From: a virus
DNA length: 30,009 bases
Strand: one strand, 5' to 3'
Virus record (IMG/VR): IMGVR_UViG_3300027996_000120
Location: 1 to 30,009 of that record
A program made the position numbers and the translations under genes. The notes under the pieces were generated by a model that worked only from the letters and a program-made list of their open reading frames with translations, did not search any database and was not told the DNA's origin. Within the stretch, counting starts at the first letter, position 1. Each line of letters opens with the position of its first letter. Below are positions 1 through 30,009 of the stretch, piece after piece.

Positions 1-138
1 GTGATCGAACATAAAAAAGTAAATATGAAAATCTTGATAAAGATTGAAACGAACAGAAAGATGAAAATGATGTTGTATAATATATATAAATGATAGAAAA
101 TTCACGGGGTTTTGAAAAATACAATTGCTTTAAATAGA
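1..138. repeat. Left copy of terminal direct repeat (circular overlap)
   Basis: This stretch matches the last 139 bases of the window except for one A: the run after CAT has six A here and seven at the far end. It contains the 3' end of the terminase small subunit gene and the start of the leader before the large subunit. With six A the reading frame of the small subunit is broken; with seven it continues to its TAA. The right-hand copy is therefore probably correct and this one carries a homopolymer error. Confidence 0.9.
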
Positions 139-151
139 TAAACTTGACAAA

Positions 152-1429
152 ATGGAGACTTCAAGAAATTTCGACAGAATATATGAAACTACAAAAAGGG
201 TTGTTTTGAATAGATGAGGGAGTTCAAGCTCAAAGACTTATTCTATCATGCAGCTTTTTTTTAAGCGGCTTATAACTTGAGAATTCAGAGAGAATGAGTG
301 GTTTATGAAATGAGTTTGATCAGTAGTCAGACAATTTAGAAGTCAGATTGAATGATCAGTTTTGAGAGATTGGAAAAATATTGTTGATGATGAATGATAT
401 ATTCTATCAAGTCGTCTTTCATGATGATCGGTGATCAAAGAAAACAAATCAAATTTAACTTATGAATATGAATGAAGAGTTCTTGAATTTATTTGATTAG
501 ATGATTTCTGAAAAGCAAAGTGACCGCGTAGAAAGATTTTATATTGTAATGAAGCAGATCAGATCAAAAGAAAGGTTTTTAATCAATTATTGATGAGAAC
601 TGAATGACCGGCATTGCTTGATTGGAATCCCGATGATGATGAAGTGTGGTTGAATACTGAAATTGAACAGAAAAGAGCAAAAGCAATTTGAGATGTTGAA
701 TTGATTGTCTCAACTTTCAGAGATAATTGATTCTTGAGTGATTCAATTGTTGCTGAAATTCTTGCATTGAAAGAGCTTGATCCGGCAGAATGGGAAGTTT
801 ATTGAAATTGATCATATTGAAAGATCAAGTGAGCAATATTCAAAGAGTGAATTCATTGGGATTCATGTGTTGAGATCCCCGAAAATGCAACTTTTGTATG
901 ATATTGACAAGATTATTGATTCACAACAGATCCAACAACATTGATTGAAGTTTGGAAAGGTGAATGATCAATCATATATTTAAACGAAATCATTTATGAA
1001 CATAATCTTGTAAATACTTATATTGATGAATCTCAAGCACAAAACTCGATTCAATGACATTATGAAATCAATTGAGTTGATAAAAGCTCAAAGATTCGGG
1101 CGGATTCAAGTGAACAAAAATCAAATGAAGAATTATTTGAAGCATGATACAATATTGAATGAGTTAAGAAATGACCTTGATCCGTTGTGACTTGATTGAA
1201 GTTCATGAAAAGATATAAAATACTTATAACTGAAAAGAGTTTCAAAACAATCAAAGAATTTAAAAAATATGTTTGGGCTGTTGATAAGAACTGAAAAACT
1301 CTAAAAGATAAAGACAAGCGTCCGATCCCGAAAGATAAAAATAATCATTGTATTGACGCAGCAAGATATTGAATGACTCATTTATTGGGTTGAACTGACA
1401 TGAGTGATCTTGATTTTTCTATTTGATAA
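152..1429 (+). CDS. terL: Phage terminase large subunit
   Basis: This is the ATPase-nuclease motor that pumps phage DNA into the prohead. The protein is 425 residues when UGA is read as Gly. The Walker A loop GGSSSSKT lies at residues 22-29, with the first Gly encoded by UGA at 215-217. The nuclease half has DYG at residue 254, ADSSE around 317-321 and a late Asp in CIDAARYG (D402), as expected for Terminase_3/PBSX-type enzymes. The start at 152 is the first ATG after an in-frame TAA at 131-133; it leaves only 21 residues before the Walker loop, short but tolerable. On the circle the small subunit gene lies immediately upstream. Two CGG codons occur (residues 39 and 316); the second, just before ADS, may be Trp rather than Arg. 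Confidence 0.95.
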
Positions 1430-1439
1430 TTTATATATT

Positions 1440-1706
1440 ATGACTTTTAATATTAAAAAGCCGAGATGTCTTTCATGGATATGTGATGACACATGGAAAA
1501 CTTTGAAACTTAAAGAAAAAGATTTTATTATCTTTCATTTTTGAATTCCGAAATTATCAAAGAAGCAGATCATGAGAAAATTATATTTTGAAGACAGAAC
1601 TTCGTATTGGAAATTTGAAAAAAGAGTAAAAGCAAAGATAAGATATGATGTTGAAAAATTCAACGAGTTTATTCAAATAACTATGAAAAAGGTAAAAAAT
1701 CAATAA
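1440..1706 (+). CDS. Small basic helical protein, possibly HTH
   Basis: The 88-residue product is basic and aromatic. Its middle (KLSKKQIMRKLYFEDRTSYW, about residues 39-58) resembles a helix-turn-helix of the kind that recognises a short repeated signal, but I do not recognise the family with confidence. It starts ten bases after the terminase large subunit stop and uses UGA only once. Its place between terminase and tail tube genes suggests a structural or packaging accessory role, or a regulator; this is inference from position only. Confidence 0.7.
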
Positions 1707-1742
1707 ATTGAATATATATTTTATTTATTAAATATATTGATT

Positions 1743-2711
1743 ATGAATCATATTTGAAGATTAGAGTGATATTGAATTGCTAAAGAAGCAACAAGATGAA
1801 CTGCCGTCGATCCGAGTGTTTGGGTGAAACAAACTGACGCAAATTTTGAAGATACTGTTGAAAATGTGCAAGATGAATCGGCTCTTTGAGTTCTTATGAC
1901 TACAAGTGAAAGTGAAAGGATAAAACAATATGCAGAATGAGAAATTGAATGAATTCTTGCAACGAAATCGATTTGATATTTTCTATTGTCTTTATTGTGA
2001 AGCGTTTCGAGTGCTGCTGCTTCGGCATGAGCATATCAACATGATTTTTCAATGAACAATACAAACAGTAAACAAAGTTTAACTATTTCAAAGAAAACTC
2101 CGATTGCATGAGAACAATTTGCTCTTGCAATGATTGAATCATTGTGAATTTCAGCAAGTGTCGGTGAAGCTGTTATGATGAAAGCATGATTAAGAGCAAA
2201 AGCGGCAGAAACTGCAACTCTAACAAAAGCGTATGTTGCGGACAATACTCTTTATGCAAAAAATGTAACAGTTAAATTTGCGGACACGGTTGCATGATTA
2301 GACGCAGCGGACGCATTATGTATTGAAAGTGTAGAATTGAATTTGACTCAAGAACTTGAAGATGGTTTTTGTTTTACTTCATGAGTTGATCTTTGAGATA
2401 TATTCAATAAAGGTTTTTCAATCGATTGAACATTCACAAAATTAAAAAATGATACAGTTTATCAAGATTATGTAAAAGACTGAACAATAAAAGCAATGAG
2501 AATTCAAATCATTGATACTGCGACAACAATTTGAGCGTCAGACAATCCAACAGTCACAATTGATATTGCAAAAGTTACATTCGAAGATCATGAAAGTGAT
2601 TGAGGATTAAATGACATAATGAGAGAAAATTTGACTTTCAAATGACACTATGACCTTGCAAATGCGAGTGATATTGATATAGTTGTTATAAATGAGCAAA
2701 GTTCTTATTAA
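1743..2711 (+). CDS. Phage tail tube protein (major tail protein)
   Basis: The protein is 322 residues. The N-terminus (GYGIAKEATRGTAVDPSVW) matches the opening of the phage tail tube family: glycine, then KExTxGTAVxPxxW, followed by acidic DESALG. Tube proteins polymerise as stacked hexamers around the tape measure and form the DNA channel. The C-terminal half is beta-rich and ends in a short loop-rich tail. The location is odd: tail tube genes normally sit after the head-tail connectors, whereas here it lies between terminase and prohead protease. The start is the ATG after an AT-rich spacer with no Shine-Dalgarno. Confidence 0.75.
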
Positions 2712-2738
2712 AATATTTTAAAAATTAATTTTATTATT

Positions 2739-3851
2739 ATGAGCATTAAAAAGATTGAACAAAATCTTGAAAAGGATTTGAAATCAATGTTTGATTCAGA
2801 ACAATTCGCAGCAAAAATGGCGGAATTAAAAGAAATCGAAGATGACAAAGAATATCAATTCAAAGTTGTTGTCACTACTGAATGAGTTGACAGAGATTGA
2901 GAAGTAATCAAAGCAGATTGAATTGAATTCAAGAATTATAGGAAGAATCCCGTTGTTTTGGTTGATCATTCATATAAAATTGATTCTATTGTTTGAAAAA
3001 CTTTGAAAATTTATCAAGAAAAATGAGTGACTTATGCAGAATGAGTATTTGCAAAAGGAATTGAAAAAGCAGAATTGATCAGAACTTTATATAATCAATG
3101 ATTTGTGAAAACTGTTTCAATTTGATTTATAGCAAAACAAAGAGATGATAAAGACAAAACAACAATCACAAAAAGTGAAATGCTTGAATTTTCTTTTGTT
3201 GCTGTTCCGGCAAATCCCGAAGCATTATCGCTTGACGGAAAAACATATCAAAAATGTTTAGATCTTTGAATATTAAAAGAATTTACAAGTGAAAATGTAA
3301 AAGCCGAAGATCTAAAAGTTTGAGACATGGTGACATATAGAAATATTGAAAGGTGGACGAGAGAAGATTGAACAGAGGTTGAAAATATTTATCCGAGCGA
3401 GAAACAATTGCCGAGAATGTGAAAAGTGATTCAAAAATTTGATAATTGAGAAGAAATTTTGACATGGTGAGATGAAGCTCTTGTTGCTTCAAAAGAAAAT
3501 CCGATTTTTACAATTCATGATCATATCAGAAGTGAAGATTGACCGAAAACAAGAACTTCAAGAATTAATATGTCAAAATATAGTGACATGAAAATTGAAA
3601 AGATTGTGACGGTTGAGGAATTTGAAAAAGGATTCAAAGAATATTTGAACAAAACTCAAGTTGACTTGAAAGATCTTTTAAATATTATAAAAGTGTTAAG
3701 AGATGAGGTTTCAGAAATGAAAAGTCAAATCAAAACTTTTGCCGAAGACAAGGCGAAATGAAAAACTCTTGAGGAATCAAGAAAAGACGCTCAAGATCTT
3801 GTCAAAGGTTTGTCAGCCTATCTTGAAAAGACAAAAACGAGTGCAAAATAG
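2739..3851 (+). CDS. HK97-type prohead protease with C-terminal extension
   Basis: This is a serine protease of the S78/U35 family that matures the capsid. The N-terminal domain carries the expected segments: EGVDRDGE, then VDHSYK with the catalytic His at residue 77, then KTVSIGF with the nucleophile Ser at residue 127, then LEFSFVAVPANPEA. Most homologues end near residue 200, but this protein continues to 370. Residues of about 195-280 look like a beta-barrel with KVGDMV and a GK-VI-KFDNGEE pattern. The last 90 residues are a charged coiled coil rich in Lys and Glu. The coiled coil could act as scaffold, since no separate scaffold gene is visible before the capsid gene. It ends in TAG, evidence that UAG is a normal stop. 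Confidence 0.9.
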
Positions 3852-3888
3852 TGCTTTAGTTTTATTTTATATATATAATTTTTATATC

Positions 3889-5022
3889 ATGGAAGTTAAA
3901 GAAATAGTAAAAGAACTTGCTCCGGTTTTAGAAAAAACAATAAAAGAACAAGTTGAAGAATGAACAAAAGAGTTCAACACAACTCTTGAAGCTCTTCAAA
4001 AAGATGTTGCAGAAGTGAAAACTTTATCTAAGAAAACAAAAGATTGAAGTGTTTCAGAAAAAAGAGAAAAAATAGGGAAATTTTTCAGAGCGTTTATAAA
4101 AGGTAATTTTGAAGAAGTGAAAACTTTATCAGAATGAGTTGACGCAGATGGTGGATATTTAGTTCCGAGTGAATTTCATAAAGAAGTGATCAGAGTTGCT
4201 GAAATTTCTTGATTTGCAAGAAAATATTGTTCTATCTTTGGAATGTCAACAGACTCAAAAGATGTGACTACTTTATCAACTTGAGCAACTGCATATATAG
4301 TTGACGAGGGGGCAGCTGTTACGGCTTCAACTCCGCAATTTGGTAGAAAAATTCTTTCTGCTAAAAAGTTTGCTGTTCTTGTTAAGTCAACTCAAGAATT
4401 GATTGATGATAACATGACAAATGAAGAAGTAATGACTCTTGTTGCTAAATTAGCGGCAGAAGCTCTTGCAGAATTAGAAGACGCTCAAGTTCTTACTTGA
4501 AGTGGTGCATGATCAAACATGACATGAATTCTTGTTGACGCAAGTGTTAATGTTGTGACTATGGCTGCAACAAAAACTTCTTTTGCAGATGTGACATATT
4601 GAAACTTGCTTGCTGTTAAAAATGCCGTTAAAGCAAAATATAAAAAAGCAAGTAAAGGAAAAAATGTTTGGGCTATGTCTCAAGATGTGTTTAATCATAT
4701 AGAATCAATTGTTGATACTACTTGAAGACCTATCATGAGAGAAAGCATAACTGCTCCAGATACATTCACAATGTTCGGGTATCCTATCGAATTAAATGAA
4801 GTATGTCCGGACGATTCAGATGACGCGGTTTCAACTAAATTTCTTGCTTTCGGTGCGTTTGCTTTCTTCGCTTTTGGTGATAGAAAACAAATTTCAACTG
4901 AAGTTTGATATGCTAGTGGAGATTTTGAAAAACAAATCAAATCTCAATTAATTTCAGAGAGAGTTGCATGAATCAATTTGATTCCTACTGCATTCGCTGT
5001 TTTAAAAACTGCTGCTGCTTAA
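3889..5022 (+). CDS. HK97-fold major capsid protein
   Basis: This 377-residue protein builds the icosahedral head. Residues 1-75 are a charged helical delta domain that would be removed by the upstream protease and can serve as scaffold. The mature part begins near EGVDADGGYLVP, with Gly83 encoded by UGA at 4135-4137, a hallmark of HK97-family capsids. Further segments fit the fold: a long region with KKFAVLVKSTQELIDD, the peptide NMTGILVDAS, and a C-terminus that returns to a hydrophobic strand. Codon use differs slightly from neighbours, with more GGT for Gly and fewer UGA, as often seen in highly expressed genes. A strong hairpin follows the gene. Confidence 0.95.
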
Positions 5023-5035
5023 TTGTAAACTATAA

Positions 5036-5059
5036 GAGGAGAAGAGAGATCTTCTCTTC
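5036..5059 (+). terminator. Hairpin after the capsid gene (partial terminator or mRNA stabiliser)
   Basis: A ten-base-pair stem with one G-U pair (GAGGAGAAGA / TCTTCTCTTC) closes a GAGA tetraloop, 13 bases after the capsid stop. It is followed by AT-rich sequence rather than a pure T run. It may reduce downstream transcription or protect the abundant capsid mRNA from 3' decay. Confidence 0.5.
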
Positions 5060-5089
5060 CTATTAATTTATAATTTTAATATATTTATT

Positions 5090-5584
5090 ATGAGCAAAAA
5101 TAACGGAAAAGAAACTCAAGATGAAGAAATTGTTGAAGAAACTGAAACTGTTGAAACAGAAGAAGTTGAAACTCAAGATCAAGAAGAAAGTGAACAAAAT
5201 TGAGATCTTGAAGAAAATGAAGAAAATGAAGAAATTGTTGAAGAAGAATCAGAAGAAGAAGTTGTTGAAACAGAAGAAGAAAAAATCGAATATAAAACAA
5301 TTAGAACAAAACTTCTTTGTAATTGTAAACATGGGAAAAATGGTGATGTTGTTGACATGAGAGAAGATCTTTTTGCCGCTTATGGTGAATGATATGTTGA
5401 AAAAACAAAAGATGACTTAACGAATAAAAATTGAAGAGTTGTTCTTGAAAAAAATGAAAAAGAAATCAAATCAGAAAGAGAAAAAGAAATTGAAGCTGCA
5501 AAAAAAGCTAAAAAAGAAGAAAAAGCAGCAATTAAAAAAGAAAATGAAAGACAAGAAAAAGAACTTGCAAATAAAAATAAATAA
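5090..5584 (+). CDS. Acidic/lysine-rich head-associated protein
   Basis: The 164-residue protein has three parts. Residues 1-65 are almost entirely Glu with Thr, Val and Gln. Residues of about 66-110 form a small folded core (KTIRTKLLCNCKHGKNGDVV, then EDLFAAYGEGYVE) resembling the short domain found in small phage proteins next to capsid genes, where GDVV is followed by a Leu/Ala helix and a Gly-Tyr/Val turn. The rest is a Lys-Glu coiled coil. It begins 67 bases after the capsid stop. A decoration or head-completion role is likely from position; function is not established. Confidence 0.75.
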
Positions 5585-5602
5585 TTCTTAATATTTTAAG
5601 AT

Positions 5603-6415
5603 ATGAAAACAAGACAAATTGCAAATAGTAATTTTATAGAGCCAATCTTTAAATTGGAAACAGCTTTATGAAGATTGGTTTGAATAACTCCATTTGAAAA
5701 ATTTTGACAAAATCCGGAAATTGACACATGAACAACTCCAGAAGATGTTTGGCATTGAGGGTGATTGTATACTTGATTGCCTACTTTTTGAGTTGCTGAA
5801 ACCTTAGAAATATCAAGCGCAAGTCCTTTAGACACAGACTGATGAACTTGAGCAAGAACAGTTGTAATTTCTTGATTATTAGATGAAGACTATAATCAAA
5901 TGCCGAGTATTACTGTGACTCTAAATTGAACTACTCCAGTTAGTTTATGAGTTCAGACATATTGGAGAGCAAACAGAATTCAAACATTAACTGCTTGATC
6001 GACTTGAACTAATCAATGAATATTAACTTTGAAACATACTACAACAACTACAAATGTTTTTGCTAGAATGCCCGCATTAAGAAATCAAACAACAATAATG
6101 GCTTTTACAGTTCCATTATGAAAAATTATTGCTATTGATAAATGAAATATTCAAATGGGTAGAGCTAGCGGAGCTGCTTGAAGTGCAGAAGTCACAGTAA
6201 GAGCAAGACCTTTTGGTTGAGTATTTAATGCTGCAAGAGATGTTTATATTACAAGTAGTCAATCATATAATTATGAAAATAATTGATTTATGGTATTTAG
6301 AGAAAAAACAGATGTAAAAGTAACTGTTGAAAGTGTAAGTGATAATGACACATTTGTGTCAAGTGAAGCAAATTGATATATGATTGATGTCACATTAAAC
6401 GATTTAGATATATAA
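5603..6415 (+). CDS. Virion structural protein (beta-rich, head or tail associated)
   Basis: The 270-residue protein is full of Thr, Ser and Gly and should be nearly all beta strand. The stretch ASPLDTDGGTGARTVVISGL, followed by LNGTTPV and later TAGSTGTNQGILTL, is a pattern I recognise from uncharacterised virion proteins of many environmental phages, where GTGARTV and a later GTNxGxI are conserved. The exact virion location in those phages is not known to me. Here it lies between capsid and connector genes, so a head decoration or vertex role is plausible. Many conserved glycines are UGA. Confidence 0.75.
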
Positions 6416-6427
6416 AATATAAAAATT

Positions 6428-6994
6428 ATGATCACTCTAGCAGAATTAAAAACATATTTGAAAATTGATGATATAACTCAAGATGATCAACTAAATTTAG
6501 CGATCCAAAATGCGACGGGTTTTTTGACTGCATATCTTTGATATTCACTTGAGCTTGACGCAGCAAAGATTGCTCTTTTTTATGGATATGATACTCAATT
6601 CGATTTGAAGTTTGCTCATATAAATTCAGTTTCGACAATTAAATATGCAACAGATGAATTTGATCCGTCATGGACGACTTATTCAGACACGGCAACAGAT
6701 TTCAAAGTCTTTCTTGAAAGATGACTTGTAAAAACAAGAGATTCAATTTGACCGCATGTTGAAATTACTTATTCTTTTTGATATGATGACGCGACTTGTC
6801 CGGACGATCTAAAAGCAATTTTGTTTGATGTTGCGGCAATGAATTTCAAAAGCATGTGAGAAGTTTCAATGTGAGATCTTAAAAGTGAAACTGTTGACGG
6901 TGATTCAATCACTTTCAAAGATATTACTTGAAGTTTATCAACAAATGCTCTTCTTTTACTTGATAAATACAAATTATATGAGTTTTCTGCATAA
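6428..6994 (+). CDS. Head-tail connector protein (gp6-like)
   Basis: The 188-residue product begins MITLAELKTYLKIDD followed by a helix with DDQLNLAIQNATGFLTAYLG. This is the classic start of the phage gp6/QLRG head-tail connector family, a mostly helical protein forming the ring beneath the portal through which DNA exits. Homologues often end near residue 100; this one has a beta-containing middle and a helical C-terminal half, as longer versions do. Its 3' end overlaps the next gene by 17 bases, indicating translational coupling. Confidence 0.8.
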
Positions 6995-7280
6995 AGAAAC
7001 AACTTGAGTGATTCAAGTATTGACTCAAGTTTGAGAAAAGTCTTCTTATGTTGCATGAGATTCGATCACATGACATTTGAAAGCGTTTTCATTAGAAGAT
7101 ACAACATTCAATGCTACATGAATTGATTGATCTCTTTATAAATTGACTGTTAAATGAGAAGTGACGATCTCATGAGCAGATCAAATATTGATTGATTGAA
7201 ACATTTATGTTGTTGAAGTTGTCAAAAAATATAAATGAATTAATTTCAACACAATAAAGATTTTATTATCTACAAAATAA
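6978..7280 (+). CDS. Putative head closure (neck) protein
   Basis: The 100-residue protein is beta-rich (GDSITGHLKAFSL, LYKLTVKGEVTISGADQILI, NIYVVEVVKKY), fitting the small barrel of SPP1 gp16-type head closure proteins. No direct motif proves this; the call rests on size, fold impression and the usual order connector, closure, completion, tail terminator. The start chosen is the ATG at 6978, inside the end of the preceding gene, because the same frame has no other suitable start before the conserved core. Confidence 0.7.
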
Positions 7281-7285
7281 ATATT

Positions 7286-7693
7286 ATGTGACTTACAGTA
7301 AAGGTTGAATGATTACAAGCGTTTGTCGACAAAATCGATAATAAAAAAGAAGTGACCTTTTGACTAAATAAATGAATCAAAAAAGTCATGTTTTTTTTGG
7401 AAGCAGAAGCAATCCCATTCACTCCGGTTGATAAATGATTTTTACATAATTCATATAGACAAAAGTTTTGAAATCTTACATGAAAATTATTCAATTTAAG
7501 AAAATATGCAACGGCTGTTCATGAATGACATGCTCAAACTCCATGAAGATTTGTTCCGGCAATTTGAGCGAGATTGGTGAGAAGTTTTGTAAAATGAAAT
7601 CCTTTTTTAACAAAAACAATAAAAAAGAGTTGAAAAAAGACAAACTTGATCATGAATAAAGAACTAAAAAAGGTTTTATCTATTTTACAATAA
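7286..7693 (+). CDS. HK97 gp10-like neck / tail completion protein
   Basis: The 135-residue protein has the profile of the HK97-gp10 family: an N-terminal GLQAFVDKID helix, then AEAIPFTPVDKGFLHNSYRQ, where the PVDTGxLxxS-type motif is characteristic, and a YATAVHEGHAQTPGRFV segment typical of the central strand. These proteins sit at the head-tail interface. The gene starts ATG-TGA (Met-Gly) six bases after the preceding stop. The C-terminus is basic. Confidence 0.8.
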
Positions 7694-7697
7694 TATT

Positions 7698-8114
7698 ATG
7701 ATTTTTGAACTTGAAACTGCTATAAAAACTAAACTTGAAACAATAACAAGATTTGTTGCTGTTTATGATCATTTCAAAAATAGCTCAACGGGTTATCCTT
7801 ATGCTTCTTTTGAATTATCAGATTTTGACGGAGAAATGCTTGACACTTGCTCAAATAAAAGAGTTTTTTCTTTTAATATTGTTGTAATTCAAGAAACAAA
7901 TGCAAATCTCACAAGAGATGAAGCAAAAAATATTGTTTATAAATGTCTTGAAGATATAATCACGGCGTTTGACGCTGACATGGATCTTTGAGAATCAACA
8001 ATTGTAAAATGAAATGTTTCAAAGGGAGAAATGTGAACAGAGCTTTGAAAAGAGTGAAGCATTATTGCTTTGAGCGTCAATATTGATCTTGAGATTGTGA
8101 CTGCCGCATGATAA
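7698..8114 (+). CDS. Tail terminator protein
   Basis: This 138-residue protein starts MIFELETAIKTKLETITRF and continues with GYPYASFELSDFDGE, then a strand RVFSFNIVVIQE and a helix ending DIITAFDADMDL. The alternation of an N-terminal helix, a YPYxxxE strand and a long C-terminal helix fits tail terminators (lambda gpU/SPP1 gp17 type), which cap the tail tube and join it to the neck. The order after a gp10-like gene supports the call. It ends in Gly encoded by UGA followed directly by TAA. Confidence 0.75.
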
Positions 8115-8141
8115 ATTTTATATATTATAAATATTGTAATT

Positions 8142-8276
8142 ATGAAAAAAACAAGTATAAATAAAAAGAAAGATAAGATGTTGAGATTTACTCTTCCCGA
8201 GTATTGATTCACTATTGAAGCTAAAAACACAAGAGAAGCCGTTGAAAAAGCGGAAAAAATACTTTCTAAAAAATAA
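8142..8276 (+). CDS. Small basic protein between tail terminator and portal
   Basis: The 44-residue product starts with Lys-rich MKKTSINKKKDKM and then forms one strand plus a helix (FTLPEYGFTIEAKNTREAVE). This resembles the short domains in which a strand precedes a helix with an EAxxxAE pattern. I do not recognise a family. It is closely packed between neighbours on the same strand, so it is likely translated. Confidence 0.6.
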
Positions 8277-8280
8277 AATT

Positions 8281-10296
8281 ATGTGAATATTTACAAAATT
8301 ATTTTCTTGAACATGAAAGTCTTTTGAAAGCATGTGAGGATATTCAATCTCAAATTGAATGTTTTGAAATTCAAACATATATAAACAATATAGTCATGAA
8401 GAACTTCTCTCTTTATATAAAGGGTGGGTTTTTTGATGTTCAGACACTATTTGAGACGGTATGGCTTTATTGAATAGATCTCTTTATAAAACAGAAGATG
8501 AAATTGAAAAAATTGATCATGCTTATATAGATTTGATTGATTCAAAAATGATGAAAGCAATTTCAATATTTTTAAAAACTCTTTGAGAAGTTTATTTGTA
8601 TAAAGAGACTGCATGAAATAAAATTATAAAACTTTCAATGCTTAAAAGCTGGAATGTTGTTGAAAAAACATGAACTCTTTGAGAGGTTTTATATTATACA
8701 TATTTTGATTGAATAAATTTCTTCGAATTTCAAAAAGAAGATTTGATTGTGATAAAAACTTTTTCACCTCTATTTGATCAATCATGAATGACTCCATTGA
8801 AAGCAATTGCAAATCAAATGGCTATGGATCTCGCAAGTATTGAATATAACAGACTATTTTTTGAAAATGGTTGAAAACCTTGAACGGTTTTGAAAAGTTC
8901 AGCAACAATTGATTCAGATATTAGAGACAAATATCTTGCAAAATGGAAACAAAATTTTGTTTGATTACAAAATTCAAATAAAGTTGCATTTTTGGATAGA
9001 TGAATCGAACTTGAAGATTTTTCAGCAAATCAAAAAGATATGGAATTGACAACTCAAAGAACTTTTACAATGGACGAAGTTTTGATGATTTTCAGAGTTC
9101 CAAAACCTTTGATGTGAAAAAGTGATTGAGTATGATTCGCAGACAAAAATGTTCCATGATACTATTTCACAGAATATTGTTTGAAACCTTTATGAGAACT
9201 TATAAAAGATGAATTAAATTCTCAATTATTTGATTGAATTTGATATTTTACTTTTGAATTTACTCAAGATAAAGAACAATTATTGAAAGAATATCAATGA
9301 AATGTGATCACTTTGAATCAATATTTATTATGAACTTGAAGATCTCCGGCAAAAAATGGTGATAGGCTTTGGGATTGATCAGAAATTGTTTTTGAAGAAG
9401 TGAAAGAGGTTTCATGAACAAGAATCGAAAAAGATCTTGAAAATGCAATTGAAAAATGATTTTTAAAAAAAGAATTTTGAACAGAAGAATTCAATGAGAA
9501 AATATGGAAAACTAAGATAAAAAGAACGGATTTATATGAAAATGACATGGAAAAAATTCAAAAGAAAATATTTTCAGCTCAAGAAAAAGAAATTCTTGCA
9601 AATCTTAAAGATACAAAATCAATAAAAGAAATTAAAAAAGAAGAAGATCTATTTGATGAAAAGAAGTCAGCTTTGATGTATTCTCTATTATATACGCCGT
9701 TTTTTACAAAAATGACGGGAAAAGAATGATCAATTGCAATGGAGGAAATAAGCGATGAAGATTTCGCGGTTGCAAAAATGAATGTATGGATCGGAGAAAA
9801 TATTGATCGCATGTCAGATGACATTGATGATGTCACAAGAACAGAAATGTTTGATATTATTAAGCAATGAAACAGAGATCAGGTTTGAGCAGATGAAATT
9901 GCAATTTCTATCAAATCAAAGTTTAATCAATACACAAGAAAAAATTGAAGAGTTGAAAAAATAGCAAGAACAGAAGTCACAAGAGCTTCAAACAAGTCTC
10001 AAGATGAAGCATATTCACAAAGTTGAGTTGTAAGCGAGAAAGAATGGTTCACTGCTCTTGATGATAGAGTTTCGGCAGAATGTGCCGTTTTACATTGAAA
10101 AAGAGTAAAAGTTTGATGAACATTTTTGAAAAAATGAAGTAAAGATGAATTATGAAACAAAGTGACTTATGAGACAGTTAAATTCCCTCCGCGTCATGTA
10201 AATTGCAGATGTACTTTGAGACCTATAATTTCGAGCAAATCTTTTGAAATTGTTAAAATAATTATGGAAAAAAATTGAAAAACTTTTAATATATAA
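8281..10296 (+). CDS. Portal protein fused to MuF-type minor head protein
   Basis: This 671-residue protein joins two usually separate virion proteins. Residues 1 to about 400 form an HK97-family portal: GWVFGCSDTIGDGMALLNR, later QSGMTPLKAIANQMAMDLAS, and then EVLMIFRVPKPLMGKSDG, which corresponds to the family's FGVPxxLLG segment. The portal dodecamer is the DNA gate. A charged linker follows. Residues of about 561-660 are a MuF domain: IARTEVTRASNKSQDEAY, then WFTALDDRVSAECAVLHGKR and PPRHVNCRCTLRP, the diagnostic ending. No stop or start separates the parts under table 25. The gene is displaced: portals usually lie between terminase and protease, but here it follows the tail terminator and precedes the tail chaperones. 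Confidence 0.93.
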
Positions 10297-10808: not shown

Positions 10809-12290
10809 ATGGCTATAAATAATGAAGTAAATATCACGCTCACGGCGAAAGATAAAGCGTCAAAATGATTCAAAAAAGTTGAGAAAAGTGCAACTTGACT
10901 TTGAGGGCGTTTAAAAAAACTTTGATGACCGTTAAAAAATGTTGCGATTTGATTATGAGCAGCATGAGTTGCCGCATGAGCGGTATGAGTGAAATTATTT
11001 AATATGGCTGATGATGTGGAAACAACAGTTTGAAAGGCTCAAACAGTTTTTTGAAGTTTTTTTGATGACATGGACGCATTTGCAAAAGAATCATGAAAAG
11101 CGATGTGATTATCAAGAGCAGAAATGCTTAAAACTTCGGCATGAATGGCGGATTTATTGATTCCTATGTGATTTGTAAGGAGTGACGCAGCAAATATGAC
11201 GAAAGACATGGTTTGACTTGCATGAGCATTGAGTGAATGGAGTGCGTGACAATATGACGCGGCTCAAGTATGAGAAATATTATCAAAGGCCATGTTGTGA
11301 GAAACAGAGCAATTAAAATCAATGTGAATTTCTATTGATCAAAGCTCGAAAGCATTTAAAGAAAGAACTCAAGCTCTTATCGATGATGAGGGGTGGACTT
11401 TACAACAAGCAAAAGCGCTTGATATTCAAGCTCAAATATTTGCAAAATCAACAGACGCTCAAGCGTCATTTGCTAATTGAGCGGACTCATTAACAAGAAA
11501 GAAAGCAGAATTATTGTCAACTTTGAAAAATGTTCAAGAAACTATTGCTTCGGCTTTACTTCCAGCATTTCATGATATTGTGACAACTTTGCAGCCGGTA
11601 ATTGAAAAGGTTTCAGAATCAATTTCTTTGTGGTTTAAAAATAAAGAAAATGTTGCAAAACTGACTGAAACAATAAAAACTATTATTTGAATTTTTTGAT
11701 TATTATTCAAAGCAATATGAAAAGTAATTTGGTTTTTGACTAAAATGTGAGAAATGCTTTGATTGGTTGCTTTTCATGTTGTTCAGTTTGTGGCCGCAAC
11801 GAGTGAAAAAATAATTTCATTTTGAAACACAATTGCTTCGGTTTGGAATTGAATCAAAGAATGAACAATGTCGGTTTTTAATTTTATAAAAGATTTTATT
11901 CAATGAATTATTGATTGAATAGTTTGAAAATTTACGGCTGCTTTTGATAAAATAAAAGCAATATTGAATTCTATAAAATCAATATGATGATCAATAACAT
12001 GAGCCGTTTCAAGTGCGGTAAGTTCAACAAAAAACTTTTTAACATGAACAAAAGCAAATTGATGAGATGTGTCGGCATGAAAATCTTATCTTGTTTGAGA
12101 AAGATGATCAGAAACTTTTGTTCCAAAAACTGATTGAACAATTGTTCCGAATTGATCGGGAGTTTGAAGTGTTTCAATAAATATGTGATGAGTTACAGTC
12201 AATGACTCCGCAGATGAAGACAGACTTGTGACAAAAATTAAAGATGAATTAACAAGAACAATTCAATTACAAGAATTTGGTATTTCTTAA
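10809..12290 (+). CDS. Tail tape measure protein (short)
   Basis: At 493 residues this is a short tape measure; at about 0.15 nm per residue it would imply a tail near 75 nm. After a basic N-terminus comes a Gly/Ala-rich hydrophobic segment (residues of about 35-65, largely UGA glycines). The centre is long helical sequence with KSTDAQASFANGADSLTRKK and a DUF-like NVQETIASALLPAF segment. Further hydrophobic stretches lie around residues 275-320. The C-terminus has YLVGERGSETFVPKTDGTIV, the recurring end motif of tape measure proteins. It follows the chaperone pair, as usual. Confidence 0.9.
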
Positions 12291-18321: not shown

Positions 18322-19006
18322 AAATTTGAATCAATACAAAGATTATTACACAAGAAACGCATGTTCAATTGTAATGCTCTTAAATATAATGAAATACAGA
18401 TTTGCAATTTTAGTTATTCCAAACTTTTTTATAAAAGTATGTGTTTATTTTGATAAAATCTGAAAATGGAGTCCGTCATGATGAGCGGTTTTTTCTGTTA
18501 TTTCATGGGCTTTTGTAAAAGCATTAAATTATAAATTAAAATTAAATTTTACAGTAGTCACAAATAAAATAAGCAAATTCAATCCGAGCGACAAGAGAAC
18601 TTATTGATTATGAATAAAAAACTATTCAACTTATAGATGGAATATAACAAAAAAAGATACAATTATTACAAAAGATGAGATAAATTATCTTTCAAATTAT
18701 AATTGAGTTTGACATGCAACAAATTGGGATTGATCAGCATGATGATATTTTATTGATACAGATTGAAGTAAAAACACTAAAATGAGTTTAGATGTTTTAA
18801 AATACTGACAAGAAAAAGATTTGTTTCGGGATAATATTAGAACAATTCAGCCGGTAGACAAAGAAACAAAAGAGGTTGTAAAATTAACAGTAAAAATGTT
18901 TATTGCTGAAAAGAAAAATAAATTAGAGAGTTTTTATAAAGATAATTTATATAATGCTTATTTAGAGAAAGCAAAACTTCTTTACTTTTATTGAAGATCC
19001 GTATAA
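18311..19006 (+). CDS. Putative papain-like (C39-type) cysteine peptidase
   Basis: The 231-residue protein contains YYTRNACSIVMLLNIMKYRF near residues 12-31, resembling the active-site Cys at the start of a helix in papain/C39-like peptidases. Later GVGHATNWDGS, followed by YFIDTDGS, resembles the His strand with a downstream polar residue. The C-terminal part is helical and basic. If correct, Cys18 and the His of GHAT would be catalytic. Its place between DUF1353 and the lysozyme would suit a wall-directed enzyme, but a virion peptidase is also possible. Codon 173 is CGG. The fold assignment is tentative. Confidence 0.7.
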
Positions 19007-19486: not shown

Positions 19487-20290
19487 ATGAAACATACAAT
19501 AAAAGTAAATTTAAAAAACACATTAACTCAAAGTGAACTTGATTCTATAATAGAAGATAAAAACACAATTAATCTTACAAATATGAAATCTACATGACAA
19601 AAAATTAAACATGCAAAGCAAAAACTTAAAAATAGGCTTAAAAAACAACTTTATATTAGCTTATTAGTATTATTTATTGTTTTATGAATGAATGTTCATG
19701 TCTACAATTCAAATGCTTTAGAAGTGAAAATTGAAGAGGTTTTCACAAGTGAATTTGAGAAAGTGCTAGAAAAAGAAGAAATTATTGATGAAGATGTTGA
19801 AAATTTAGTGAAAATTTTGCAAGAGTCAGTTGACAAAGAAATTCTGACAACTGACAAAGAAAATTTGATAGTTCACAAAACAGATGAAGAAATAATTCAA
19901 GAAACTATAAAATTTTTACATGAATTTGAATGAGTAAGATTTCAAGCATATTGGGATTATAAACAATTTTCAATATGTTATTGAACAGAATCATATAAAT
20001 GAGAAATTGCAACACAAGATGAATGTGATGAAAGATTGAGAGAAAGAATTCAAACAGAATTATTAAGAATCAACAGATTAGCTGACAACTTAGAATGGAA
20101 TAAAAAAGTTGCTCTTATAAGTTTTTTCTATAATACATGATTTAAAATTGATGTTCTGAATTATGCAGCTAGATGAGATGATAAAAGTGTTATTTACTTA
20201 ATTAGTTTATATAACAAAGCATGATGAGAAAAACTTCAATGATTAGTAAATAGAAGATATGCCGAAATTGAAATGTATAAAAATAAATAA
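19487..20290 (+). CDS. Membrane-anchored GH24 lysozyme (endolysin)
   Basis: The 267-residue protein cleaves peptidoglycan. A basic N-terminus is followed by one hydrophobic segment near residues 53-68 (LYISLLVLFIVLG), then an acidic linker. The lysozyme domain starts with LHEFEGVRFQAYWDYKQFSI: E148 and D157 match the catalytic Glu and Asp of T4-like lysozymes, with Ser162 near the usual Thr position. The later ALISFFYNTGF and GLVNRRYAEIEMY segments are standard for the family. The hydrophobic segment may act as a signal anchor (SAR type), keeping the enzyme membrane-tethered until lysis. Gene regulation may involve the repeats just upstream. A terminator follows. Confidence 0.9.
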
Positions 20291-20806: not shown

Positions 20807-21358
20807 ATGGAAGAAAACACAAAAAATGTGATGTTTAGTTCTTGAAATGATAAGTGGGCAACTCCGCAAGATTATTTTAATAAGATAAACGAAAAATATA
20901 AATTTACACTTGATCCGTGTGCTGCTAAAGATTCTTTCAAATGTGAAAGATATTTTACAGAAAAAGACGATTGACTTTCTCAAAATTGGGATTGAAGAGT
21001 ATTTTGCAATCCTCCATATTCAGAATTGAAAAAGTGGGTGCAAAAATGTCATCATGAAATTAAAAATAATGAAAATTGTGAGTTTATTGCTCTATTGATT
21101 CCGTCAAGAACGGACACGATTGCTTTTCATGATTATATTTATAAAAAAGAAAATGTTGAAATCGATTTCATAAAATGAAGATTGATTTTCGGGACAGATG
21201 ACTATTGGGCGTGGCTTTGGGATCAAGAATTTGTGATAAATGCAAAATGAGTTCAAAAAAAGAATACTTTATTTGAAAAATATTGAAGAAAAGATCCCGC
21301 TCCATTCCCGACAATGCTTGTATTATTTAAAAAAGATTGGACAAATAGTCCATTATAA
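20807..21358 (+). CDS. Phage DNA N6-adenine methyltransferase (Dam family)
   Basis: The 183-residue protein matches the short phage Dam type: DKWATPQDYFNKINEKY at the start, then FTLDPCAAKDS, and the catalytic NPPY at residues 68-71, followed by LKKWVQKCHHEI. The C-terminal half has LIPSRTDTIAFHDYIY and KGRLIFG. It would transfer methyl groups to adenine in DNA, protecting phage DNA from restriction or marking it for replication control. Target site is unknown; GATC is common in parts of the window. The promoter of the next gene lies inside its 3' end. Confidence 0.9.
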
Positions 21359-21395: not shown

Positions 21396-22274
21396 ATGTT
21401 AGAAATAAAAACTTATTCTCCAAAATCTCACAAAATAAAATGTTTGATTTATGGAGCTAGTTGAACTTGAAAAACGACATTCGGTTGAAGTGCAAAAGAT
21501 GTGATCTTTGCAAGTTCAGAGAATTGACTTTTATCAATTGCAGATAAAAAAGTCGCAATGACGGATATTAAAACTCTCGAAAATTTAAAAGAGTTAAGGG
21601 ATTTTTTAAAGAATGAGGATCATGAGTTCAAAACTTTAGTTATTGACTCAATAACAGATATAAACAATATTATAAAAGATTCTATTGAGAAAAAAACGGG
21701 AAGACAAATGCAGATCAAAGAATGGTGAGAACTGTCAAATTCTATAAAATGAATATTAGCAGACATAAAGGATATTGACATGAATGTGATCATTATTGCT
21801 CAAGAACATATTGAGAAAGATGATCAAGTGATTCAAAAAATAATTCCGAGCTTGAATTGAAAGATTGCAACTGAAATTTGTTATTTTATGGACATTGTTT
21901 GATATATAAGTATTGACAATAAATGAAATAGAAAATTGATTACTGCTCCGAGTGAAAAACTACTCACAAAAGACAGAACTTGAAAAATTTGAAATGATGA
22001 AGATCTTGATTTTGAAAGGTGGATCGAACTTGTGAATGAAATTTCAATTAATGATGAAGAAATATTGTATTCTGTTATGAATAAACAAGAAAAAGAATTG
22101 ATTAAGAAAGCAACTCAATTTGAATTGTATTCTAAGCAATTAAATGAGTGCAATGATGTTGAGTGTTTAAAAAAAATATATAAAAGTATTAATAATAAAT
22201 TAATTACACAATTACACTTGAATGATTTGATTAAAATTAAAGATCAAATAAAAAATAATTTAACTACTAAATAA
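21396..22274 (+). CDS. Sak4-like RecA-fold ATPase (AAA_24), recombination
   Basis: The 292-residue protein has Walker A GASGTGKT at residues 20-27, with both inner glycines from UGA, and a Walker B strand ending in TLVIDS (D84). The following segments (KEWGELSNSIKGILADIKDI, then NVIIIAQEH) match the phage AAA_24/Sak4 group, single-strand annealing recombinases related to RecA. About 85 extra C-terminal residues are helical and Lys/Glu-rich. It is the first gene after a regulated promoter and is followed by Gp157 and a NinB-like gene, forming a recombination cluster. Confidence 0.88.
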
Positions 22275-22281: not shown

Positions 22282-22812
22282 ATGTCAAATATATACGAAT
22301 TACCGCAAGAAATTGAAGCAGCTCTTTTCAAATATTATTCTTGTTTTGATGAAGAGACTTGAGAATTAATTGTTGAAGAATCAGACTTTCAAAAAATTGA
22401 AAAAGAATTGTATGACTTACAGAATCAGAAAGAAGAATTGTTGAATTGGTATTTGAAAGATCGTGCAAACAGACTTGCTGACAACGCATGATTAGATAAT
22501 GAAATCAAAAGGTTGCAAAATAGAATTAAGATCAATAACGCAAAAATTAAAAGAGTTGAAAAAATTGTTGATTATAATTTTAAAGAAATGTATAAGTGAA
22601 AAGCAATCGCATTTTGAAACTTTACAGTGAATTATAGAAAATCAAAACAAACAATAATTGAGAATCAAGATTTGATTCCCGAATCATTTGTAAAAAGAGA
22701 AATGATCGAAAAAGTTTCTATTCCAAAAGCAGACATTAAAAAAGCAATTGAGAATGGCGAAGTTGTTCCATGAGCTACAATTCAAGAAAATCAATCTTTA
22801 TCAATTAAATAA
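22282..22812 (+). CDS. Gp157-family protein
   Basis: The 176-residue protein has a coiled-coil centre (LLNWYLKDRANRLADNAGLD and following) and a C-terminal beta segment FGNFTVNYRKSKQTIIEN followed by LIPESFVKREM, with KADIKKAIENGEVVPGA at the end. This order is the Siphovirus Gp157 signature. Members have been linked to phage resistance in Streptococcus thermophilus, but their molecular role is unsettled; they often neighbour Sak-type recombinases, as here. Confidence 0.85.
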
Positions 22813-22819: not shown

Positions 22820-23248
22820 ATGAGAAAAGTTTGAAAATTAAATATAATATTTGAATTTATTTCTGAATATGTAAATGAGCGACTCGATTCAGATGACGAG
22901 TATATTCTCACTATAAAGAAAAAAAAGAAAACAAGAACACTTCAAGAAAATAAATTGATCCATGTATTGATTCAAATGTTTGTTGATGAAGAAAATAAAC
23001 TTTGAAATAGATATTCACTTGATGAGATGAAAAATATCATGAAACTTGCATTGATTTGAGTCAAAGAGATAAAGTTTTGAGATTTTATGATTCAATATCC
23101 CTTGAAGTGAACTTCGGAGCTTACAATCGAAGAATGAATTGATTTTATAGAAAAAATGATCTTTTCATTAAACAAAAGATATTGATTGGATATTCAATCG
23201 AAAGACGATGAAAGATTTTTGAAATATTATGATCAATACATACAATAA
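22820..23248 (+). CDS. NinB-like recombination protein (tentative)
   Basis: The 142-residue protein has a strand ILTIKKKKKTRTLQENKLIH, then a helix, and ends with GTSELTIEEGIDFIEKMIFS and YGLDI. The RTxxQNxxxH start and the STxELxxxExxxFxxxI end are the landmarks of NinB/Orf recombination-mediator proteins, which bind single-stranded DNA. Its place after Sak4 and Gp157 supports this. The only in-frame CGA codon of the window lies at 22880. Confidence 0.75.
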
Positions 23249-23265
23249 TTTTTAATTTTAAAACC

Positions 23266-23487
23266 GTGAAAAAATTTGCAGCAAAAACAATCCCCGAGTT
23301 AAGAAGACTCAAAGGAATAAATATTTCAGATATAAAAAAAGTAATGTCAAAACAAACATATTATAATTGGATCAGTTGAGAAGCTATTCCAAAAGATGAG
23401 ACAATAAAAACTTTTTGTAAATTATTTGAAATTGATCAAAAAACTTTTAACAAATTATTAAAAAATACTTTAAAACTAAAAAAATAA
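23266..23487 (+). CDS. Small helix-turn-helix DNA-binding protein
   Basis: The 73-residue protein is read from GTG at 23266, since no ATG in frame precedes the conserved part. It contains TIPELRRLKGINISDIKKVM, then KQTYYNWISGEAIPKDETIK and FCKLFEIDQKTFNKLL, the five-helix outline of Cro/C1 (XRE) HTH proteins, with WxxGxxxP at the end of the recognition region. It is the best candidate for binding the TGGAC-N5-GTCCA sites, though that link is inference. Confidence 0.75.
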
Positions 23488-24124: not shown

Positions 24125-24931
24125 ATGAAAGAAACATTTTACTTCTCGCATGATTATAATGCTCGTGATGATGAAAAAATACTTCACATGGTTTCAGAAA
24201 TGTGAATGGAATGATATTGACTTTATTGGTGAATTGTTGAAATATTAGCAATAAATGAATGAAAATTTAATTTAAACACTCAATGAATTGCTTATAAATT
24301 TAGAATAGATAACAAACTTATAACACAACTATTACACAATTATAATTTATTTATAATAGACGAAGAAGAATGAATATTTTATAATGCAAGATTATTGGAG
24401 CATTTTGAAAAAAGAAGTAAACAAAAAGAAAGAAAATCAGCAGCATGAAAAAAATGAATGGCTAAAAGGTGGGGAAATAATAACACAGTTATAACAGAAA
24501 ATAACACAACTATAACAAACGATAACAAAGTAAAGGAAAGTAAAGTAAAGGAAAGTAAAGTAAATAATATTATATCTAAAGATATAACAACAGAAGTTGA
24601 AGTGTTTTGAAATGAAAATATAAATAAAATGCAAGAACATATAAAAAAAACAATAGAAGATACATGAAGAATTTATAAAGCATGAAAATATGAAAGAATG
24701 AGAATTAAAAATATTCTGACTTGAAAAGAGTTTTGAGAAGTTTGTGAAAAAGCAAAAATGAGCAGAAAAGATTTTGTTTTTAATATTATAAACTTAGCTT
24801 GAAAATTAAAATATTCAAAATCAATAAATAATTGAGCAGATTTATATTCAAATTATGCAGCCGTTTATAATAAATGACTTGAAGCAAAGCATGAACTTTT
24901 AGAAACTAAAATATTAAGAGAAATATGATAA
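24125..24931 (+). CDS. Replication initiation protein (DUF4373/Lin1244-type N-terminus)
   Basis: The 268-residue protein begins YFSHDYNARDDEKILHMVSE followed by GYGLYWGIVEILA, YKFRIDNKLITQLLHNYNLF and RSKQKERKSAAGKKG, the clear outline of DUF4373 winged-helix proteins found at the N-terminus of phage replisome organisers. A low-complexity Asn/Thr/Lys linker (about residues 120-150) is encoded by tandem repeats that may be the origin. The C-terminal domain (GRIYKAGKYERMRIKNILTG) could recruit helicase. No helicase or polymerase gene was seen, so host replication proteins are probably loaded. Confidence 0.82.
24480..24565. repeat. Iterons inside the replication gene (candidate origin)
   Basis: ATAACACAGTTATAACA (24480) and ATAACACAACTATAACA (24501) are followed by ATAACA at 24522, a strict 21-base period, two helical turns. 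Then AAAGTAAAGGAAAGT occurs twice in tandem (24527-24541, 24542-24556), followed by a half copy. Repeats inside the initiator gene recall the lambda O origin. They encode only a low-complexity linker, so protein constraint does not explain them well. Confidence 0.6.
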
Positions 24932-27223: not shown

Positions 27224-27622
27224 ATGAAAGAAAAAGACATTGAAAACGCTATTTATGAATATTTAAAATTAAGATGAGCTGTTGTTGAAAAGCTGCAAGG
27301 TTGAAAAGTTTTGATTGCTAAATGAAAATATAAACACATGATGACTCTTCAAAGTGAATGAGCTTGTGACATAACTTGTTTTTATAGATGAGAATATATT
27401 TGAATCGAAGTGAAAAAAGATCAAAAAGAAATTGGTCATTGGTTGAAGCAAGAAAAGAGATTTTATTCATGAGAAAAGATTCCGAAATCTTATAAAAGGG
27501 AGGAGTATCAAATCAAATATAAACAAAAAATATTGAAAAATTTTTGAACTTTCATTCTTACTTGTGAGCTTAAAGAAGTTATTGACTATATTTTAGAAAT
27601 GGACGAAAAGTCCAAAAAATAG
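27224..27622 (+). CDS. VRR-NUC nuclease (resolvase-like)
   Basis: This 132-residue protein starts MKEKDIENAIYEYLKLRGAV and has GACDIT with D49 and YIGIEVKKDQ with E62 and K64, the D-ExK core of VRR-NUC domains, followed by a strand GTFILTCELKEV. Such stand-alone domains cut branched DNA. It starts directly after the HNH gene stop. The operator-like palindrome for the next gene overlaps its last codons. It ends in TAG. Confidence 0.85.
27600..27614. promoter_or_regulatory. Operator-like palindrome TGGAC-N5-GTCCA
   Basis: Perfect half-sites TGGAC and GTCCA with a five-base spacer, inside the last codons of the nuclease gene and eight bases upstream of the -35 box at 27623. Same arrangement as at 20420. 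Confidence 0.5.
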
Positions 27623-27929: not shown

Positions 27930-28142
27930 ATGAAAAATTTGCATATAGACACTATTGACGCAAAAGACTTCTGACCGGATTATTCAAAAGCAAAACATAC
28001 ACAATGGATTTTGAAAGATCTTCATTTGAATGACGAAGCAAGAGAAGTATTTCAAGAAGAACTTCGGGATTTGATGTTGAAAAACAAGATCCGTGTTTGA
28101 AAAATGTGTTCATTAGAAGAAAATTGAATGCAACATAAATAA
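27930..28142 (+). CDS. Small soluble protein (70 residues)
   Basis: Helical product (MKNLHIDTIDAKDFGPDYSK, then WILKDLHLNDEAREVFQEEL) without recognised family. One CGG codon lies at 28065. It is spaced 14 bases from the preceding gene. Confidence 0.55.
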
Positions 28143-28784: not shown

Positions 28785-28886
28785 ATGTGAATTGAACTTT
28801 TAAAGCCTACGAAATCAAAAAGAAAAAGACGCATGACAAGACAAGAGAAAATTGATGAAATGAAAAGGAGGAAAAAAAGAAAATAA
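28785..28886 (+). CDS. Very small basic protein (33 residues)
   Basis: Starts ATG-TGA (Met-Gly), two bases after the previous stop. The product is half Lys/Arg (PTKSKRKRRMTRQEK and RRKKRK). It may bind nucleic acid; alternatively the frame is fortuitous. Confidence 0.4.
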
Positions 28887-28907
28887 TATTTTTTAATTTA
28901 TGAATTT

Positions 28908-29234
28908 ATGGAAAGAGAAATAAAGTTCAAAGCGTGGGATTGACAAAAAATCATTCAATGTTGAATTGTTTGTGAATGAAAATGATATGAAGATTGGAGA
29001 CATTTTGAAGACGGGATTTCAGCGTGAATGAATCTTATGCAATATACATGAGTTAAAGACAAGAATTGAGTTGAGATATATGAATGAGATATTGTTTCAG
29101 ATGATAGTCAATGAGGACTAATATATTCAATTGAATTTCATGAAGCATGTTGATATTGTGATCCTACAAAAAATTATTATCTTACAAGTGATATGAGTTC
29201 AGTATTTGAAGTAGTTTGAAATATATATGAATAA
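28908..29234 (+). CDS. YopX family protein
   Basis: The 108-residue protein shows the YopX signature: REIKFKAWDGQKI at the start, LMQYTGVKDKNGVEIYEGDI in the middle, and VFEVVGNIYE at the end. YopX proteins are common in Firmicutes phages; their function is unknown. The start at 28908 is preferred to the ATG at 28900 because only the later frame encodes the motif. Confidence 0.9.
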
Positions 29235-29253
29235 TAATTTATAAATAATAATT

Positions 29254-29421
29254 ATGAATTGAAAAGAATTGAGAAAACAATGATTCAAGGTGAGATCAAA
29301 AGTTCATTTGCATTTTAATTGAGAAATAAGGCGTTGAACAATAACAATCTTGAAAAAGGATCAAATGAAAGTTAAAATGGAAACATGAGAGATTGCCGAT
29401 ATATCTTTCAATGAATCATAA
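29254..29421 (+). CDS. Small basic beta-rich protein (55 residues)
   Basis: The protein (KVRSKVHLHFNGEIRRGTIT, then KDQMKVKMETGEIADI) has the spacing of a small SH3/KOW-like barrel. Function unknown. It ends 31 bases before a terminator. Confidence 0.5.
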
Positions 29422-29452
29422 TTGTTGCATTTTTCAACAAAGAGAATAATAT

Positions 29453-29486
29453 GAGTTAGAAATAAATATTTACTAACTCTTTTTTT
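29453..29486 (+). terminator. Intrinsic terminator before the terminase small subunit
   Basis: Seven-base-pair stem GAGTTAG / CTAACTC with a 13-base loop and seven T. The T run touches the start codon of the next gene at 29487, so transcription read-through here could control packaging gene expression. Confidence 0.75.
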
Positions 29487-29951
29487 ATGGAATATAAATT
29501 TTGAACATGAAGACCTCCAAAGTTTGAAAAGGCAGAAGATATGCAAAAACAGATTCAAGAATATTTGAGCAGCAATATTGATAAAATGAATATTAAAACA
29601 TATTATGATGTCAAAGAAGTTCCCGTTTTAACGATTACATGACTTGTTCTTTATTTGGGTTTTGCAGATAGAAGTTCATTCTATAAGTACGAGAAAAAAG
29701 AAGAGTTTAGGCACACAGTAAGAAGAGCAAGAACTTTTATTGAGAATACTTATGAAAAGCAGCTTCAATCTTGAAACGCTACATGAGCGATTTTTGCATT
29801 GAAAAATTTCTGATGGAAAGACATTCAAACTCTTGAATGAGAAGTAAATGACAATTGAGAAAGAAAGTTTGTGATCGAACATAAAAAAAGTAAATATGAA
29901 AATCTTGATAAAGATTGAAACGAACAGAAAGATGAAAATGATGTTGTATAA
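29487..29951 (+). CDS. terS: Terminase small subunit
   Basis: The 154-residue protein recognises the phage packaging site and hands DNA to the large subunit. It opens GTGRPPKFEKAEDMQKQIQE and contains TITGLVLYLGFADRSSFYKY, a helix-turn-helix, then a helix with FRHTVRRARTFIENTYEKQL and GAIFALKNFGWKD. These are the landmarks of the gp3-like small terminase family. The C-terminus is charged. The ATG is fused to a terminator T run. On the circle it precedes the large subunit by about 70 bases. Confidence 0.9.
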
Positions 29952-30009
29952 TATATATAAATGATAGAAAATTCACGGGGTTTTGAAAAATACAATTGCT
30001 TTAAATAGA
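29871..30009. repeat. Right copy of terminal direct repeat (circular overlap)
   Basis: Matches 1-138 with one additional A in the run beginning at 29883. This version keeps the terminase small subunit frame intact through its TAA. The overlap indicates a circular assembly, or less likely a true terminal redundancy. Confidence 0.9.

Follow-up and report, generated by a model that had tools for sequence, protein, structure and literature searches.

The stretch analysed here, the IMG/VR virus record IMGVR_UViG_3300027996_000120 (30,009 bases, GC 27%; 'the window' throughout), is the genome of a tailed phage in which UGA is read as glycine and CGG is most likely read as tryptophan. It is a complete phage genome of ~29.87 kb, circular or circularly permuted, because it carries a terminal repeat of ~139 bp, in which the first 139 bases (1-139) pair with the last ~140 (29870-30009), and because L002, a 12.2 kb contig of a different metagenome that is 99.98% identical to the window, runs from 23,890 through the junction to 6,221. 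The only difference between the two repeat copies is an extra A in a run (six against seven), at the very end of the terminase small subunit gene.

The recognised genes all lie on the + strand and include the set expected of a tailed phage with an HK97-type capsid (Caudoviricetes), identified by matches to Pfam (PF) and PHROG (phrog_) profiles, with E-values given in brackets below; no integrase was recognised among the scanned genes. The terminase large subunit (TerL; 152-1429; PF17288, 7.7e-18; PF04466, 9.5e-11), with 35 UGA and three GGN codons, is followed by a minor tail protein (1737-2711; phrog_290, 9.8e-26), the real start of which is perhaps a few codons downstream, the S78 prohead protease (2739-3851; PF04586, 7.9e-6), the HK97-fold major capsid protein (3889-5022; PF05065, 2.9e-44), a phage protein of family phrog_8198 (5603-6415; 5.9e-23), the head-tail connector (6428-6994; PF05135, 6.2e-11), a tail completion or neck protein (7286-7693; phrog_5, 1.6e-13), the tail terminator (7698-8114; phrog_176, 1.3e-4) and the portal protein, fused to a Mu F-like domain (8281-10296; PF04860, 2.9e-38; PF04233, 2e-12). 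The order of the structural genes in this region (152-10296) is unusual: a minor tail protein gene separates TerL from the protease, and the portal gene lies 3' of the capsid, connector and tail terminator genes; a viral scan with the portal protein found no relative. The tail genes continue with the tape measure protein (10809-12290; phrog_991, 1.4e-20), the distal tail protein Dit (12301-13104; phrog_33, 1.4e-6; PF22768, 1.5e-4, under the curated cut-off of that profile), a second minor tail protein (13097-15115; phrog_13892, 9.2e-29) and a glycine-rich tail fibre-like protein (15164-16813; phrog_8469, 1e-7). The last of these has 121 glycines in 549 residues, 105 encoded by UGA and 16 by GGN, and is unrecognisable under the standard code.

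Beyond the tail genes lie a DUF1353 protein (17794-18321; PF07087, 9.6e-11), an endolysin of the phage lysozyme type (19487-20290; PF00959, 6.8e-17), a DNA N6-adenine methyltransferase (Dam; 20807-21358; PF05869, 3.9e-24), a Sak4-like AAA recombinase (21396-22274; PF13479, 3.4e-32), a Gp157-like protein (22282-22812; PF05565, 1.4e-18), a NinB/Orf recombination mediator (22820-23248; phrog_72, 6.9e-11), a helix-turn-helix regulator of uncertain start (23227-23487; PF01381, 2.7e-5), a Lin1244-type replication or DNA-binding protein (24125-24931; PF14297, 5.3e-9), an endonuclease-like protein (27224-27622; phrog_93, 4.9e-7), a YopX-family protein (28908-29234; PF09643, 4.4e-15) and the terminase small subunit (29487-29951; PF16677, 7.7e-20; phrog_606, 1.1e-22). 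None of the 37 ATG starts in the window has a Shine-Dalgarno-like motif upstream; instead there is A at -11 in 32, A at -3 in 27 and T at -1 in 28 of them, a pattern similar to the starts of Bacteroidetes, in which starts lacking a Shine-Dalgarno motif are known.

These genes exist only if UGA is read. Under the standard code the longest open frame is 119 amino acids, against 712 (and then 677, 566 and 495) when UGA is read through, whereas reading UAG or UAA in place of UGA gives at most 152 or 261 amino acids; frames of at least 100 amino acids cover 4% of the window with UGA as a stop and 90% with UGA as a sense codon. Within the 42 genes called there are 604 in-frame UGA codons, spread over every one of the 42, and no UAA or UAG. 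This absence is not chance, because the other two frames of the same genes hold 324 and 361 UAA codons (with 93 and 64 UAG). The original prediction, made from the letters and a list of open reading frames, that UGA alone interrupts the genes is thus borne out.

In order to determine the meaning of UGA without circularity, we replaced UGA, CGG and CGA by X in the query proteins before aligning them with standard-coded phage homologs, and scored all 20 residues at each column with BLOSUM62-based likelihoods, every column being counted once. Over 120 masked UGA columns glycine scored +49.4 nats and the second-best residue, alanine, -7.2; with a larger reference (114 columns) glycine scored +47.3 and tryptophan -75.5. 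Glycine thus leads every other residue by more than 50 nats. Of 37 UGA columns in which one residue makes up at least 70%, 31 are glycine; glycine also came top in each of the six genes scored one by one, and the same procedure assigned all 46 testable control sense codons correctly. UGA is glycine throughout the window, as had been predicted, and the accompanying claim that its positions do not fit tryptophan also holds, UGG coexisting as the tryptophan codon (73 codons, scored as Trp).

The motifs cited in support of that prediction agree. In TerL, the UGA at 215-217 is the first glycine of the Walker A motif RGGSSSSKT; in the Walker A motif of Sak4, GASGTGKT, both later glycines are TGA; and in the capsid motif EGVDADGGYLVP the first glycine only is TGA. 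UGA accounts for 87% of glycine codons in the refined gene set (604 of 692, the remaining 88 being GGN), and its share is the same in the structural genes (UGA:GGN 418:66) as in the early half of the genome (186:22). GGA and GGG had been described as uncommon and GGC as seen about twice, which counts from the first gene set confirm (TGA 612, GGT 42, GGA 31, GGG 15 and GGC exactly 2).

The prediction had also assigned the window to NCBI table 25, in which UGA is glycine and the other codons are standard; that assignment stands for UGA, but the table on its own probably does not describe the code of the window completely, because CGG most likely reads as tryptophan. There are five CGG codons in real genes. 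Two of them, in a protein at 18311-19006 (codon 18827-18829), for which neither the viral scan nor the phage scan found homologs, and in a small protein at 27930-28142 (codon 28065-28067), could not be scored. The other three could. In the minor tail protein at 13097-15115, the CGG at 14492-14494, within DGTS[W]NKIDNTD, aligns with tryptophan in each of its five standard-coded homologs, two of them in Rhizobium phages and the others in phages of Agrobacterium, Vibrio and Gordonia. In TerL, the CGG at 1097-1099 (KI[W]ADSS) faces UGG in two UGA-recoded relatives, L003 and L005, phenylalanine in L004 and tyrosine in L145, and the same column in 61 standard homologs is mainly Y, T, I, V or W, with arginine in one; the CGG at 266-268 faces UGG in L003, the nearest relative, while the standard homologs are mixed, some having arginine. 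Summed over the three sites, the Trp-over-Arg score is +4.17, a value reached by none of 200,000 random triples of true arginine-codon sites, while 15% of draws of UGG sites are as low. Taking these sites together with the relatives described below, we regard it as highly likely that CGG would be translated as tryptophan in this genome. CGA is probably tryptophan alongside it, with support from the relatives L145, L205 and L005.

Several points weigh against this. The CGG reading rests on few sites, of which one is dominant (+4.46 at the tail site, +0.56 at TerL 1097 and -0.86 at TerL 266), and since one transition turns TGG into CGG, a Trp-to-Arg substitution could imitate reassignment. The only CGA in the called genes (at 22880, in the NinB/Orf gene) is in a gene without informative homologs and so carries no information on what CGA means. 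The small number of sites, the dominance of one and the ease of the transition also favour the alternative that survives best, namely plain table 25, with CGG as arginine, the three sites as ordinary Trp-to-Arg substitutions and any Gracilibacterium as the possible host; and in two of the UGA-Gly relatives, L203 and L206, CGA and CGG are indeed arginine. Against it, the tail site (+4.46) stands well above the best of the 59 other arginine-codon columns of the window (+1.36), and both TerL CGG codons lie opposite UGG in L003, whereas none of 59 other aligned arginine codons faces tryptophan there. We therefore consider plain table 25 unlikely, although it is the strongest of the alternatives. 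A match of TerL to a PDB entry (2wbn) was too weak to serve as codon evidence and was dropped.

The reading of CGG as tryptophan can be compared with that in other IMG/VR phages with the UGA-Gly code. TerL relatives (L003, L004, L005, L145, L203, L204, L205 and L206) and Sak4 relatives (L006, L221 and L222) have frames that open only when UGA is read, and UGA scores as glycine in those with enough aligned columns, L006 having too few for scoring. Antisense frames that relaxed open reading frame calling produced in L005, L145 and others were set aside, although a few persist in one of the codon counts made on the relatives. In L145 TerL, five CGA/CGG codons lie at tryptophan or aromatic columns; L205 has three CGA codons, aligned with W, W and F columns; and in L005 TerL a CGA lies at a conserved tryptophan column (Trp in 63 of 73 homologs). 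By contrast, CGA/CGG is arginine in L203 (13 sites; Arg +8.6, Trp -9.6) and in L206 (29 sites; Arg +3.9, Trp -22.4), with UGA as glycine in both. These two serve as negative controls, and because they come out as arginine the scoring procedure gives arginine where it is due. For L204 the scoring gave no decision between the two residues.

Here too some observations tell against a uniform reading as tryptophan. In the UXS of L005, the CGA at codon 89 faces lysine in human UXS, while that at codon 288 faces tryptophan; one CGA in the Mu F-like protein of L005 is unclear in meaning; and the sites of L145, L205 and L005 taken together match tryptophan slightly less well than real UGG sites do (P 0.011). 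L005 also carries, at 5700-7691, a homolog of UDP-glucuronate decarboxylase and a gene that by its sequence resembles a sugar-nucleotide dehydrogenase, both possible surface-polysaccharide genes.

The relationships of the terminases bear on how the code was acquired. L003 shares a TerL clade with the window (76% identity), and in a maximum-likelihood TerL tree of 94 rows these two lie among standard-coded terminases, while the seven other UGA-recoded TerL, including all five relatives with an assigned reading of CGA and CGG, form a separate clade. The well-supported branches force at least two code changes, in 200 of 200 bootstrap trees, a reading of the tree that is limited by long branches and by exchange of terminase genes. 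Within the second clade the UGA-Gly phages split on CGA/CGG, between arginine (L203 and L206) and tryptophan (L145, L205 and L005), a difference that may be a host marker. Taken together, we think it fairly likely that phages carry this sense-codon reassignment, with two sub-codes among UGA-Gly phages, CGA/CGG as tryptophan (the window, L145, L205 and L005) or as arginine (L203 and L206), each tracking its host, and that at least two unrelated terminase lineages entered the code from standard-coded ancestors.

A further sign of contact with standard-coded phages lies in the second minor tail protein, where a segment at about 14240-14600 matches phages of Rhizobium, Agrobacterium, Vibrio and Gordonia at 50-60% identity, much more closely than does the rest of the genome. 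This shared segment shows that modules have passed across the boundary between the codes.

The prediction that the window lacks a recoding tRNA or release factor gene was upheld: ARAGORN found no tRNA genes, Rfam gave nothing even at E 10 except chance microRNA and snoRNA matches, and no RF-1 domain was found at E 10. Since the phage has neither tRNA nor release factor genes, the host must supply decoding. In such a host, a tRNA-Gly(UCA) would read UGA, a tRNA-Trp that reads CGR (CGA or CGG) would read CGG, and there would be no termination at UGA by release factor 2. Code 25 is found in the class JAEDAM01, which comprises the Absconditabacteria and Gracilibacteria. If CGG is tryptophan, this choice narrows, and the most likely host is an Absconditabacterium or a Gracilibacterium in which CGG has changed as well. 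It should be weighed against this that the assignment is based on the code rather than on a link through CRISPR spacers or a prophage.

Searches for the host genome were negative. A scan of a genome collection with the TerL alignment found no relative, and searches of four Patescibacteria samples, of 157-380 genomes, by means of TruB, EF-Tu, a tRNA pattern and the TerL profile turned up no UGA-Gly genome. A scan for the tRNA-Gly(UCA) pattern gave 87 stretches, mostly Mycoplasma-type tRNA(UCA); a Patescibacterium found in this way was rejected as a host candidate because its UGA is tryptophan. Three metagenome-assembled genomes of Patescibacteria titled Campbellbacteria or Parcubacteria (G001/L055, G002/L045 and G552) have UGA at tryptophan sites and a tRNA(UCA). 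Their ValRS genes contain 18, 8 and 15 in-frame UGA codons, respectively, and in that of G001 (G001:C1:109745-111913) the UGA columns checked match tryptophans of Thermus thermophilus ValRS; these genomes are probably the UGA = Trp family JAKLIH01 reported in PMC13092985. In addition, we note that a 35.8 kb record, PP511318.1 (Dulem virus 31; L008), with terminase, portal, sheath and tape measure genes, has a taxonomy line that says Microviridae, which is clearly wrong.

The remaining alternatives concern UGA and the genome itself. The window could belong to a phage whose host uses the standard code and which changes code in the course of infection in order to delay its late genes, as has been described for large recoded phages; code-shift phages exist (summarised in PMC10746230), but here every one of the 42 genes uses UGA, among them the small terminase, the regulator and those for recombination, and the share of UGA equals that in the late genes. 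Nor did the window yield a suppressor tRNA, a release factor or a synthetase, so we consider this very improbable. That UGA is tryptophan (code 4), as in Mycoplasma and one family of Patescibacteria, would be the reassignment met more often in bacteria, and phages using that code are known (discussed in PMC10746230); however, the masked columns already refute it, tryptophan would have to make up ~7% of residues in a genome in which UGG is in use and reads as tryptophan, and a Patescibacterium in which UGA really is tryptophan looks quite different, which leaves it a negligible chance. An assembly artefact or decayed prophage, for which the one-base difference between the repeat copies is all that can be cited, is likewise refuted, and is the least credible of all, by the L002 contig across the junction, by the fact that only UGA interrupts the frames and by the same pattern in the relatives L003-L006, L145, L203 and L205.

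As a whole, the explanation that we find very likely is that the window is a complete HK97-type tailed phage written wholly in the altered code of its host, probably an Absconditabacterium, which would decode UGA as glycine, for 87% of glycines in early and late genes, and CGG, probably with CGA, as tryptophan. Of this, the glycine reading of UGA, its presence in every gene and the lack of decoding genes are shown here; CGG as tryptophan has the support of three sites and of the relatives, and the identity of the host and its decoding tRNAs are inferred.

Phages that use UGA as glycine are already known from Absconditabacteria and Gracilibacteria, and the window is a further member of this group. 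Liu et al. (2023, mBio, PMC10746230) described code 25 phages and prophages of these bacteria, with host links by CRISPR spacers, and the window resembles those phages in its code traits, namely dense in-frame UGA, hardly any genes when code 11 is applied, and decoding by the host. That study covers UGA only, and its text does not mention CGA or CGG, whereas in the window CGG is also likely to be tryptophan. RSA-ATP1 (2026, mBio, PMC13059738), a phage of Strigamonas (Absconditicoccaceae), is, like the window, a complete tailed code 25 phage with a NinB-like recombination gene; however, it is 39 kb long, carries four tRNAs, one of them a suppressor tRNA-Gly(TCA), and uses UGA in only 60% of its open reading frames, compared with 29.9 kb, no tRNA and UGA in all genes for the window. 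The text of that paper does not mention CGA or CGG either, and their usage is not discussed. The sense-codon part of the code therefore appears to be unreported for phages: among open-licence full texts we found no published report of CGA/CGG as tryptophan in phages, the only relevant match being the Codetta paper (Shulgina and Eddy 2021, PMC8629427), in which UGA = Gly plus CGA/CGG = Trp was predicted for the Absconditabacteria, while the Gracilibacteria vary. The code predicted there for bacterial genomes and that of the window, a phage, are alike in UGA as glycine and, most likely, in CGG as tryptophan, and both go with low GC and AGA as the main arginine codon.

A phage with CGG as tryptophan would give independent support to the Codetta prediction for the Absconditabacteria, because the phage must be made by the translation machinery of its host. 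Annotation pipelines that use table 25 would put arginine where the protein has tryptophan. The sub-code, CGA and CGG as tryptophan or as arginine, may provide a host marker for phages without a CRISPR match, and it would make testable how a virus passes from the standard code into one in which both a stop codon and sense codons have been reassigned.

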